Source: Chromatiaceae bacterium (lineage in GTDB: Bacteria > Pseudomonadota > Gammaproteobacteria > Chromatiales > Chromatiaceae). Taken from it: DNA of 35,391 nucleotides. The DNA lies in assembly GCA_024639005.1 (NCBI GenBank), contig JAHEJD010000024.1, positions 1 to 35,391 of the forward strand. The letters are read 5' to 3'. Positions 32,309-35,259 of the stretch are shown here, one piece after another. Position 1 is the stretch's first letter; each line of letters opens with the position of its first letter. The position numbers and the translations under genes are program-made. Under the pieces are notes generated by a model. The model saw nothing but the letters and a program-made list of their open reading frames with translations. It was not told where the DNA came from and searched no databases.

Positions 32309-33235
32309 ATGACCCTGAACGAGCTCCGCTACGTCGTTGCTGTGGCACGCGAGCGCCACTTCGGTCGCGCGGCCGAGGCGTGTTTCATCAGTCAACCGAC
32401 CCTCAGTGTGGCGGTCAAGAAACTCGAGGAAGAACTCGGGCTCAGTCTGTTCGAGCGCCGCAAGGGCGAGATCAGCGTCACACCGATTGGGGAACAGATT
32501 GTCGCCCAGGCGCAGCGTGTGCTGGAGGAGGCGGGCAACGTTCGCCAGATCGCGCGGCAGGGTCAGGATCAGCTCGACGGTACCCTGCGTCTGGGCGCGA
32601 TCTACACCATCGGCCCCTACCTGCTGCCCTACCTGATCCCGCAGCTGAGCGAGCGTGCGCCCAAGATGCCGCTGCTGATCGAGGAAAACTACACCGCCAG
32701 ACTCAGTGAACAACTCAAGCGTGGCGATCTCGATGTGATTCTGATCTCGCTGCCGTTCGACGAGCCGGGTATCCTGACGCTGCCGCTGTACCGAGAGCCG
32801 TTCGTCCTGCTGCTGCCGCGCAGCCATCCCTTGAATCAGAAAAAGGATTTCTCGATCGACGATCTAAGGGAGGAAGACGTCCTGCTGCTCGGGCCGGGAC
32901 ACTGTTTTCGGGACCAGGTGCTGGAGGTCTGTCCGGACTGCATGCAGCGCAGCACCACCGAGGGCAGCGCCGCCAAGACGATGGAGGGCGGCTCCCTGGA
33001 GACCATTCGGTACATGGTCGCGAGTGGATTGGGTGTGACTATCCTGCCGTGTTCCGCGGCCGGCGCGGAGCGGTTTTCCGAACGACTGCTGAGTATCCGC
33101 CGCTTCGGCCGCAAGACACCATCGCGCATCGTCGCGCTGGCCTGGCGCAAGAGTTTTCCGCGCCCGGATGCGATCACGGAGCTGAGCGATGCCGTACTGG
33201 CCTGCGGTATGTCCTGTGTCGAGGCGCTAGACTGA
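32309..33235 (+). CDS. oxyR: Hydrogen-peroxide-sensing regulator OxyR
   Basis: A 308-residue LysR-type regulator. The N-terminal winged helix reads MTLNELRYVVAVARERHFGR, then AAEACFISQPTLSVAVKKLE. The redox pair is present at exactly the E. coli numbers, Cys199 in GPGHCFRDQ and Cys208 in LEVCPD. In E. coli these form the disulfide that switches OxyR on. The C-terminal GGSLETIRYMVASGLGVTIL is typical of OxyR. It lies directly upstream of a rubrerythrin operon that carries a candidate OxyR site. Confidence 0.95.
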   Translation: MTLNELRYVVAVARERHFGRAAEACFISQPTLSVAVKKLEEELGLSLFERRKGEISVTPIGEQIVAQAQRVLEEAGNVRQIARQGQDQLDGTLRLGAIYTIGPYLLPYLIPQLSERAPKMPLLIEENYTARLSEQLKRGDLDVILISLPFDEPGILTLPLYREPFVLLLPRSHPLNQKKDFSIDDLREEDVLLLGPGHCFRDQVLEVCPDCMQRSTTEGSAAKTMEGGSLETIRYMVASGLGVTILPCSAAGAERFSERLLSIRRFGRKTPSRIVALAWRKSFPRPDAITELSDAVLACGMSCVEALD

Positions 33236-33307
33236 GCTGCCTTGTCGAGCCGCCTGATCGCCAGAAAAAAATAGCCTCAGATGGAGCCTGGGATCTCGGG
33301 ATAGACG

Positions 33308-33344
33308 ATAGGTATCCTCTATAAGTTCGATTGCCAGAATCAAT
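33308..33344 (+). promoter_or_regulatory. Candidate OxyR-binding site upstream of rubrerythrin
   Basis: The E. coli OxyR consensus is ATAGnTnnnAnCTAT, seven bases, then the same again. Bases 33308-33322 match the first half at 9 of 10 conserved positions. After exactly seven bases, 33330-33344 match the second half at 7 of 10. The site ends directly at the predicted -35, the position expected for class I activation. The match was counted by eye. Confidence 0.6.
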
Positions 33345-33373
33345 TTCATGCGGAGTTCGCCGCCGACTATAGT
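33345..33373 (+). promoter_or_regulatory. Predicted promoter of the rubrerythrin operon
   Basis: A weak -35 (ttcatg, 33345-33350), a 17-base spacer and a good -10 (tatagt, 33368-33373) lie 60 bases before the rubrerythrin ATG. A poor -35 next to an activator site is usual for activator-dependent promoters. Confidence 0.5.
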
Positions 33374-33433
33374 CAGAACGCCAAACGCCGGGTGATCCCG
33401 GCATCCGTTCCAACACAGACTGGAGGATAAGTC

Positions 33434-33853
33434 ATGTCTCTCAAAGGATCGAAGACCGAAGAAAACCTGAAGGCCGCATTCGCCGGCGAATCGCAGGCCA
33501 ATCGCCGCTACCTCTACTTCGCCTCAAAGGCCGACGTGGAAGGCTACAATGACGTGGCCGCCGTCTTCCGTTCCACTGCGGAAGGCGAGACCGGGCACGC
33601 CCACGGCCACCTGGAGTACCTGGAGCAGTGTGGTGACCCCGCAACAGGTCTGCCGTTCGGCGGGACCTCAGACAACCTGAAGACCGCGATCGCTGGTGAG
33701 ACCCACGAGTACACCGACATGTACCCCGGGATGGCGAAGACCGCGCGTGACGAGTCACACGACGAAATCGCCGACTGGTTCGAAACCCTGGCCAAGGCGG
33801 AGCGCTCGCACGCCAACCGCTTCCAGAAGGCATTGGATCAACTCAACGACTGA
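33434..33853 (+). CDS. rbr: Rubrerythrin (single ferritin-like domain)
   Basis: A 139-residue di-iron protein that reduces hydrogen peroxide in the cytosol. The four-helix ligands are in place: Glu19 (AFAGES), Glu52 with His55 (EGETGH), Glu89 and Glu92 (AGETHEY), and Glu123 with His126 (KAERSH). The C-terminal rubredoxin domain with two CxxC pairs, present in classical rubrerythrins, is missing, so electrons must come from a separate donor. GGAGGA lies six to eight bases before the ATG. A terminator-like hairpin follows, and then the GlpC-like Fe-S gene 77 bases on. Confidence 0.93.
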
Positions 33854-33860
33854 TCCCAGG

Positions 33861-33890
33861 CAGGGGAGGGCAAGCCTCCCCTGTTTCTGT
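33861..33890 (+). terminator. Strong hairpin with T-rich tail after rubrerythrin
   Basis: caggggagg (33861-33869) pairs with cctcccctg (33875-33883), nine perfect pairs with loop gcaag, followed by tttctgtttctg. It should end many transcripts after the rubrerythrin gene, with partial readthrough into the Fe-S gene. Confidence 0.75.
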
Positions 33891-33930: not shown

Positions 33931-35259
33931 ATGGCTGGTGCGCGCGAAGGCAGTCTGGAGGCACCTACCCGGCATGCGCTGGATTGGAAAAACCCCGATT
34001 ACTACGACGAAGGCAAGCTATTCGCCGAGATGGAGCGGGTGTTCGACATCTGTCACGGCTGTCGTCGATGCGTCAGCCTATGCCAGAGCTTCCCGGTACT
34101 CTTCGATCTTGTCGACGAATCGTCGACGATGGAGGTCGACGGGGTCGCCAAGGACGATTATTGGAAAGTTGTCGATCAGTGTTACCTGTGCGACCTGTGC
34201 TTCCTCACCAAGTGCCCCTATGTACCGCCCCATGAGTGGGATCTCGACTTCCCGCACCTGATGCTGCAGGCGAAGGCCGTGAAATTTAAGAAACACGGCG
34301 CCTCTGTGCGCGACAAGACCCTGACCAGCACCGACAGGGTCGGCTCGCTGGCAGGCATCCCCGTGGTCAACGGCTTAGTCAATGCCCTCAATCGCAACAA
34401 GACCTTTCGCGGCATCCTTGAGGACGGCTTCGGTGTGAGCCGCGACGCCAAGCTCCCAAATTATCACAGCAAGACACTGCGCGACCGAATCAGTCCGGAT
34501 AGCGGAGAGGCCGCCGAGGCGGCCGGCCCGACGACCGGCAAGGTCGCCTTGTTTGCGACCTGCTACGGCAATCGCAACGATCCGCAGAGCGGGGAAGACC
34601 TGGTGGCGGTGTTCCGCCACAACGGCATCGCGGTAACGCTTGCCGACAAGGAGAAGTGCTGCGGTATGCCCAAGCTCGAGCTGGGCGACATGGAGGCCGT
34701 GGCGCGCTCAAAAGAGACCAATATCCCGGTACTCGCCGGGCTGGTCGACGCGGGTTGGGACATCATCGCACCCGTGCCTTCCTGCGTGTTGATGTTCAAA
34801 CAGGAGCTGCCATTGATGTTTCCGGACGACCCGGATGTGGCCAAGGTGCGCGACGCCATGTACGACCCTTTCGAGTACCTGATGCTGCGGCACAAATACA
34901 ACAGACTGCGAACGGATTTCAAACAGCCGCTCGGCAAGGTGGCCTACCACGCAGCCTGCCACCAGCGCGTACAGCGGATCGGCCCCAAGACCAAGGAGAC
35001 ACTCGCGCTGATCCCCGGCGTGGAGATCGACGTGATCGAACGCTGTTCAGGGCACGACGGCACTTATGCAGTGAAGAAAGAGTCGCATGAGCTGTCCATG
35101 AAGATTGCGCGACCCGTGGTCAACCGCGTCAAACAGGATGCGCCCGATCACTACAGCAGCGACTGCGCGATGGCCGGCCATCAAATCTCGAACGGCCTCG
35201 CCGACGGCACCGAACCTGAGCACCCGATCACGTTGATGCGGATCGCCTACGGTATCTAA
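33931..35259 (+). CDS. GlpC/HdrD-like iron-sulfur oxidoreductase
   Basis: A 442-residue protein. Two ferredoxin-type 4Fe-4S sites are at Cys41, 44, 47, 51 (CHGCRRCVSLC) and Cys84, 87, 90, 95 (CYLCDLCFLTKCP). Two CCG-type cysteine-rich domains follow. The first has the typical EKCCGMPKLE and PSC. In the second the CCG has become RCSGHDGTY, with HAACHQRVQ and SDCAMAGHQI around it. It is related to the GlpC subunit of anaerobic glycerol-3-phosphate dehydrogenase and to heterodisulfide reductase. Next to rubrerythrin it is a good candidate electron donor, which is inference. No glpA or glpB is nearby. The spacer holds AAGGAG about eight bases before the ATG. Confidence 0.88.
   Translation: MAGAREGSLEAPTRHALDWKNPDYYDEGKLFAEMERVFDICHGCRRCVSLCQSFPVLFDLVDESSTMEVDGVAKDDYWKVVDQCYLCDLCFLTKCPYVPPHEWDLDFPHLMLQAKAVKFKKHGASVRDKTLTSTDRVGSLAGIPVVNGLVNALNRNKTFRGILEDGFGVSRDAKLPNYHSKTLRDRISPDSGEAAEAAGPTTGKVALFATCYGNRNDPQSGEDLVAVFRHNGIAVTLADKEKCCGMPKLELGDMEAVARSKETNIPVLAGLVDAGWDIIAPVPSCVLMFKQELPLMFPDDPDVAKVRDAMYDPFEYLMLRHKYNRLRTDFKQPLGKVAYHAACHQRVQRIGPKTKETLALIPGVEIDVIERCSGHDGTYAVKKESHELSMKIARPVVNRVKQDAPDHYSSDCAMAGHQISNGLADGTEPEHPITLMRIAYGI

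Follow-up and report, generated by a model that had tools for sequence, protein, structure and literature searches.

A predicted OxyR operator at the rubrerythrin promoter of a Chromatiaceae bacterium, and possible exchange of regulators on the same operon in other Proteobacteria

In the 35,391-base stretch of Chromatiaceae DNA analysed here (the window), a two-half motif at positions 33308-33344 is, with a probability that we put at about 0.9, the OxyR operator of a peroxide-activated rubrerythrin promoter, much as an earlier, sequence-only reading of this DNA had proposed. The basis for this assignment is the sequence and spacing of the motif, its conservation, its phase relative to the -10 hexamer, its occurrence before other peroxide genes and the cysteines of the adjacent regulator. 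The features of the locus are collected in Table 1.

Table 1. Features of the oxyR-rubrerythrin locus (window coordinates)
Feature	Position	Strand	Evidence or remark
oxyR, LysR-type regulator, 308 aa, Cys199 and Cys208	32309..33235	+	Pfam HTH_1, LysR_substrate
Distal OxyR half-site (predicted), ATAGGTATCCTCTAT	33308-33322	.	9/10 conserved positions
Proximal OxyR half-site (predicted), ATTGCCAGAATCAAT, form ATTG-N7-CAAT	33330-33344	.	7/10 conserved positions
Weak -35 hexamer TTCATG, abutting the OxyR site	33345-33350	+	3/6 to consensus; 17 bases before the -10
-10 hexamer TATAGT	33368-33373	+	5/6 to consensus; sequence
Rubrerythrin, 139 aa, without rubredoxin domain	33434..33853	+	Pfam Rubrerythrin
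Terminator-like hairpin, possible partial terminator, between rubrerythrin and Fe-S gene	33858..33886	+	Hairpin scan
GlpC-like Fe-S protein with CCG domain (the RFO of Cardenas et al.)	33931..35259	+	Pfam CCG above cut-off
Presumed DUF3501 gene, first 33 codons, cut by the contig end	35292..35391	+	Translation

The sequence-only reading had described a 9/10 match to the E. coli OxyR half-site followed seven bases later by a 7/10 match, and both scores, as well as the 7-base gap, were reproduced. Taken together, the halves match 16 of the 20 conserved positions of the E. coli two-half consensus. This is the highest score in the window (the runner-up scores 12), and among 10,000 dinucleotide shuffles of the intergenic sequence 33236-33433 none reached 16, 10 reached at least 15 and 40 reached at least 14. 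A strict 37-base OxyR pattern with up to three mismatches did not report the site because it has four, and score counts were used in place of that pattern. Single half-sites were no rarer than chance (four found with at most two mismatches, 2.7 expected); the strength of the evidence is in the paired halves and their conservation, not in the half-sites alone. When the 3.2-Mb genome was searched with ATAG-N7-CTAT-N7-ATTG-N7-CAAT, the rubrerythrin site was the only place without a mismatch; seven further places brought the total to eight matches, compared with three for the reversed control pattern, and every match to either pattern other than the rubrerythrin site carried three mismatches. In PMC7041247 the OxyR binding motif is described as ATAG repeated four times, with one element every 10 bp.

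A weak -35 at the end of the site, a 17-base spacer and a TATAGT -10 had also been proposed, and all of these lie at the claimed positions. A sigma-70 promoter scan listed no promoter around 33345-33373, where the hexamers match at 3/6 and 5/6. Among 30 promoters of relatives with an OxyR site, 27 have a -10 of at least 4/6, and in 20 of those 27 it lies exactly 23 bases past the site, as in the window. A TTGACA-like -35 hexamer of at least 5/6 is found at only 2 of these 30 OxyR sites, compared with 686 of 2740 control windows. In E. coli, an OxyR site that abuts a weak -35 is the layout of an activated promoter.

The rubrerythrin leader also contains a perfect stem, GCCGGG-TGAT-CCCGGC (33387-33402), between the -10 and the Shine-Dalgarno sequence, and a similar stem is present in the seven loci of the genus. 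A consensus fold of the 5' leader contained no predicted pairs. For the named stem in 14 sequences, two pairs had changes in both partners (a level reached by 42 of 500 shuffles) and 80% of cells were paired, compared with at most 50% when the stem was slid; pairing support for this putative structure is thus weak.

The regulator encoded upstream has both Pfam domains (PF00126 and PF03466) above cut-off, and its closest solved chain is the P. aeruginosa-type OxyR 4x6g (E-value: 1.1e-103). Cys199 and Cys208 (own numbering), which the sequence-only reading had noted, align with the residues of the same numbers in the solved P. aeruginosa OxyR chains. Among the NCBIfam models listed, OxyR scores best, though below its cut-off (223.5 versus 329 bits); this equivalog cut-off is a curated naming threshold rather than a functional feature, and six adjacent regulators of other loci also fall under it (228.6-327.9). 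Both redox cysteines are aligned in 39 of 40 adjacent regulators, the remaining one (L095) having an alignment gap at position 208. The architecture is the LysR type common to the OxyR proteins of P. aeruginosa (4x6g, 4y0m) and E. coli (1i69, 1i6a), with which the system also shares Cys199/Cys208, a two-half motif of the E. coli type and, as predicted targets in genomes of the genus, katG, a dps-type gene, an ahpC-family gene and a peroxiredoxin-glutaredoxin/glutathione reductase operon. It differs from them in its predicted control of rubrerythrin and in the ATTG-N7-CAAT form of the proximal half. The protein has one more cysteine, Cys211, which together with the resolving Cys208 forms a C-P-x-C motif (codons 199-211 at 32903-32941). 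All 23 adjacent OxyR proteins of at least 60% identity share Cys211 in the alignment, whereas the aligned P. aeruginosa OxyR lacks it; this residue could modulate the redox switch.

Conservation was assessed in loci from two sources. Rubrerythrin relatives were sought in 93 genomes at increasing distance, of which 68 matched; 60 with a match of at least 69% identity were used (the match in G005 covers 96 residues only), while G022, represented by two short fragments, was excluded along with weaker matches. To these were added the best 80 of at least 589 rubrerythrin matches in named genomes, and removal of 3 duplicates from the 140 loci left 137 distinct ones. Seven of the nine genomes of the genus have the rubrerythrin gene, with no match in G004 and G007. 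In all seven, oxyR lies directly upstream, the site scores 15-17 and stops 86-90 bp short of the ATG, and the alignment keeps GATAG, CTAT, ATTGCCAGAA[TA]CAATTTC and a TATA-type -10. Within the distal half, ATAG and CTAT are kept in 7/7 loci while the middle drifts; the proximal half reads ATTGCCAGAA[TA]CAAT in 7/7. The sequence-only reading had named loss of the halves from relatives that keep the promoter as evidence against it; in these seven loci the halves, their spacing and the -10 are instead retained together.

Across the whole set of 137 loci, 40 have oxyR at most 600 bp upstream of rubrerythrin, on either strand, and 30 of these 40 have a site of at least 14/20 within 250 bp (shuffles gave a mean of 0.05 of 40). 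The ten others comprise L030 and L038, where an OxyR site lies further upstream than 250 bp, L065, in which no OxyR site was found beside the adjacent oxyR, and seven loci with sites scoring 11-13 (L055, L066, L068, L070, L073, L094 and L096). Because the search selects consensus-like words, the fair test of these sites is at positions outside the consensus; shuffles and newly found targets are likewise free of this bias. In the 23 sites from outside the genus, A34 and T43 are present in 23/23 and A36 in 22/23, all at positions outside the E. coli consensus. Upstream of rubrerythrin in L055, L066, L068, L070 and L073 there is a variant half-site, ATCG-N7-CGAT, adjoining divergent OxyR-type regulators (38-40% identity), and in these loci the regulator and its motif may have diverged together.

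A matrix built from the sequences of the 23 rubrerythrin sites of other genera (R1) was then applied to the nine genomes of the genus. At E ≤ 10 it gave 35 rows, and 30 of them were examined; since L185 repeats the G006 rubrerythrin site on the opposite strand, these stand for 29 distinct places. Seven lie before rubrerythrin, so that the site was recovered in 7/7 genus genomes with the gene, and seven lie before a peroxiredoxin-glutaredoxin gene (PGdx) that is adjoined by a glutathione reductase gene. Five more are before katG or the start of a katG gene, one is before a ferritin-like (dps-type) gene and one before an AhpC-family gene. Because R1 leads to PGdx, katG, dps-type and ahpC-family genes, and because the cysteines align, the two-half motif is very probably that of OxyR. 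The remaining eight places are not before a classical target: they are before or near an arsenic_eff-family gene, gpm-type genes (two), cfa, lpxC, hypD, or are L172 and L186, for whose neighbouring genes no family was found. The matches at the arsenic_eff-family gene, the gpm-type genes in two genomes, cfa and lpxC (L165, L171, L175, L178 and L181) may be either unusual OxyR targets or chance.

In the window's own genome (G000), R1 has exactly two matches at E ≤ 10, the rubrerythrin site (6.1e-5) and a site before PGdx and the glutathione reductase gene gor (9.6e-4). The latter, at 211-254 of L170 (G000:C77), is a second predicted OxyR site, and OxyR very probably also drives the peroxiredoxin-glutaredoxin/glutathione reductase operon. 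The proposal of an OxyR peroxide circuit at rubrerythrin is supported by conservation and by the classical targets, with qualifications; in particular the circuit is not strictly self-contained, since PGdx-gor is a second predicted target. A comparable target is known from H. influenzae, in which OxyR control of the fused peroxiredoxin-glutaredoxin PgdX was shown experimentally according to the accessible text of PMC3511568; there pgdX neighbours oxyR, whereas here rubrerythrin does.

Three other explanations of the motif were weighed. It could be a true OxyR site that serves mainly in repression or in tuning oxyR itself, so that rubrerythrin would not be induced by peroxide. OxyR represses some genes in other bacteria, and R1 found no second OxyR site before oxyR in the window's genome, which leaves autoregulation of oxyR from elsewhere unexplained. 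Against these points stand the activator-like arrangement of the site, which directly adjoins a weak -35 and keeps a constant distance to the -10, its position downstream of oxyR, where it begins 73 bases past the stop codon, and the presence of the motif before katG, PGdx and others in genus-mates, and we regard this explanation as improbable.

A still smaller probability is given to binding by a different LysR-type regulator, with oxyR as a mere neighbour. The genome has seven further LysR-type matches and the site, without the box described below, is present in 20 of 97 loci without an adjacent oxyR; but those seven are all distant (23-29% identity to OxyR), the 20 loci may have oxyR elsewhere, and the targets of the motif are the classical ones of OxyR. 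Chance likeness of two half-sites, to which the ordinary frequency of single half-sites might point, is the least credible of the three and highly improbable given 0/10,000 shuffles and conservation in 7/7 genus loci and in further genera.

Under the preferred reading, in which 33308-33344 is an OxyR operator, events at the promoter can be predicted from what is known of OxyR. The product of the upstream gene would bind both half-sites; peroxide would oxidise Cys199, which would pair with Cys208; and the oxidised protein would aid RNA polymerase at the weak -35 and TATAGT, raising rubrerythrin transcription, and at least some of the transcripts would continue into the Fe-S gene and the presumed DUF3501 gene. 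Rubrerythrin would then reduce peroxide, with electrons presumably arriving via the Fe-S protein, a role suggested by gene neighbourhood and the literature. The closest solved chains to the rubrerythrin are the rubrerythrins 9onm and 4di0, and peroxidase activity has been reported for ferriperoxin, another rubrerythrin without a rubredoxin domain (PMC3317640, accessible text). For the Fe-S/CCG protein, the NCBIfam GlpC model scored below cut-off; the RFO was proposed as an electron carrier by Cardenas et al. (2016; PMC5114695, accessible text). A DUF3501 gene is identified by Pfam at the equivalent place in L060, L115 and L117. The hairpin after rubrerythrin is a weak prediction, since three terminator-like hairpins were found in 1.8 kb where 1.2 were expected; it may lower expression of the downstream genes and so set the rubrerythrin level above that of its partners.

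The rubrerythrin lacks a rubredoxin domain and adjoins an RFO, as in an aerobic-type rubrerythrin operon. The locus shares with the cluster of Cardenas et al. the succession of such a rubrerythrin and a CCG Fe-S protein, followed up to the contig end by the presumed DUF3501 gene. The accessible text of that paper (PMC5114695) names no OxyR, PerR or "regulator", whereas here a regulator adjoins the operon. In the open-access literature searched, we recognised no paper on OxyR or Irr control of the rubrerythrin-RFO-DUF3501 operon.

A different element is found at the same operon in other loci. A TTAGA-N5-TCTAA box (at least 9/10) is present in 42 of the 137 loci, compared with 0 or 1 in five shuffled sets. 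It is found in 0 of the 40 loci with an adjacent oxyR (Fisher p = 2e-8, a value that treats related loci as independent). An OxyR site is present in 22 of the 97 loci without an adjacent oxyR, and two of these (L057 and L061), or 2 of the 42 box loci, carry both elements. Of the 40 box-only loci, 38 have a TTGACA-like hexamer of at least 5/6 no more than 45 bp upstream of the box, and in 32 the hexamer is perfect; the frequency is to be set beside the 2/30 for OxyR sites and the 686 of 2740 control windows. A strong -35 with a downstream box would suit a repressor, while an activator would go with a weak -35 that has a binding site immediately upstream.

The box resembles the Irr box (ICE). 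A regular-expression search for Fur-family proteins across the loci found none; a Pfam scan of the neighbouring genes found one Fur-family gene, near the operon in L115, whose product lacks the motif of that regular expression. This protein scores best to IrrA, although below cut-off (112.3 versus 150), followed by Irr and then PerRA, and for this reason a classical PerR box is ranked second to Irr. Irr-like genes, defined as relatives of the L115 gene at E ≤ 1e-20, were found in 9 of the 11 box genomes, compared with 11 of the 49 others (p = 0.0004, again calculated as if loci were independent, while the genomes are related); on these counts such a gene is neither required for the box nor enough for it. 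An Irr-like gene is divergent to rubrerythrin in L028, L057 and L061. In Rhodobacter and Bradyrhizobium, Irr boxes precede rubrerythrin-like (MbfA-type) genes according to the accessible text of PMC3413700, an arrangement of Fur-family regulator and box like that proposed for the 42 box loci. MbfA is nevertheless a different protein from the rubrerythrin of this operon, which the NCBIfam MbfA model matches only at an E-value of 3e-4.

A FastTree tree was built for the 101 of 137 loci whose RFO rows were usable, and on it at least nine changes are needed between the OxyR-site and box types. The count is rough because 30 of the 98 inner branches have weak support, and comparison with shuffled labels shows no more than a clustering of the two types. 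Neither element is found in 35 of the 137 loci, and other switches therefore exist. From the motifs and their co-occurrence, a single operon seems to have swapped activator and repressor several times.

No match to KatG or to a haem catalase was found in the window's genome. Among the genus-mates, KatG is present in 8/8 and some haem-catalase match in 5/8, two of them short. As the genome is 95.8% complete and in 155 contigs, the absence may be either a loss or a gap. On balance, we lean towards a broader reading in which Proteobacteria have repeatedly exchanged an OxyR-activated for an Irr/Fur-repressed promoter on the rubrerythrin-RFO-DUF3501 operon, the two being nearly mutually exclusive, with a few lineages having both, and in which the rubrerythrin and PGdx-gor regulon of the window's species replaces the missing catalases.

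Because KatG and haem-catalase matches are lacking, rubrerythrin may carry much of the peroxide scavenging in this organism. The aerobic-type rubrerythrin operon gains a specific predicted peroxide regulator, one that goes unnamed in the accessible text of the literature cited here. More novel than the OxyR site itself is the apparent exchange of its regulators, and an activator-repressor exchange on a conserved operon would make it testable how promoters are rebuilt when the regulator changes.
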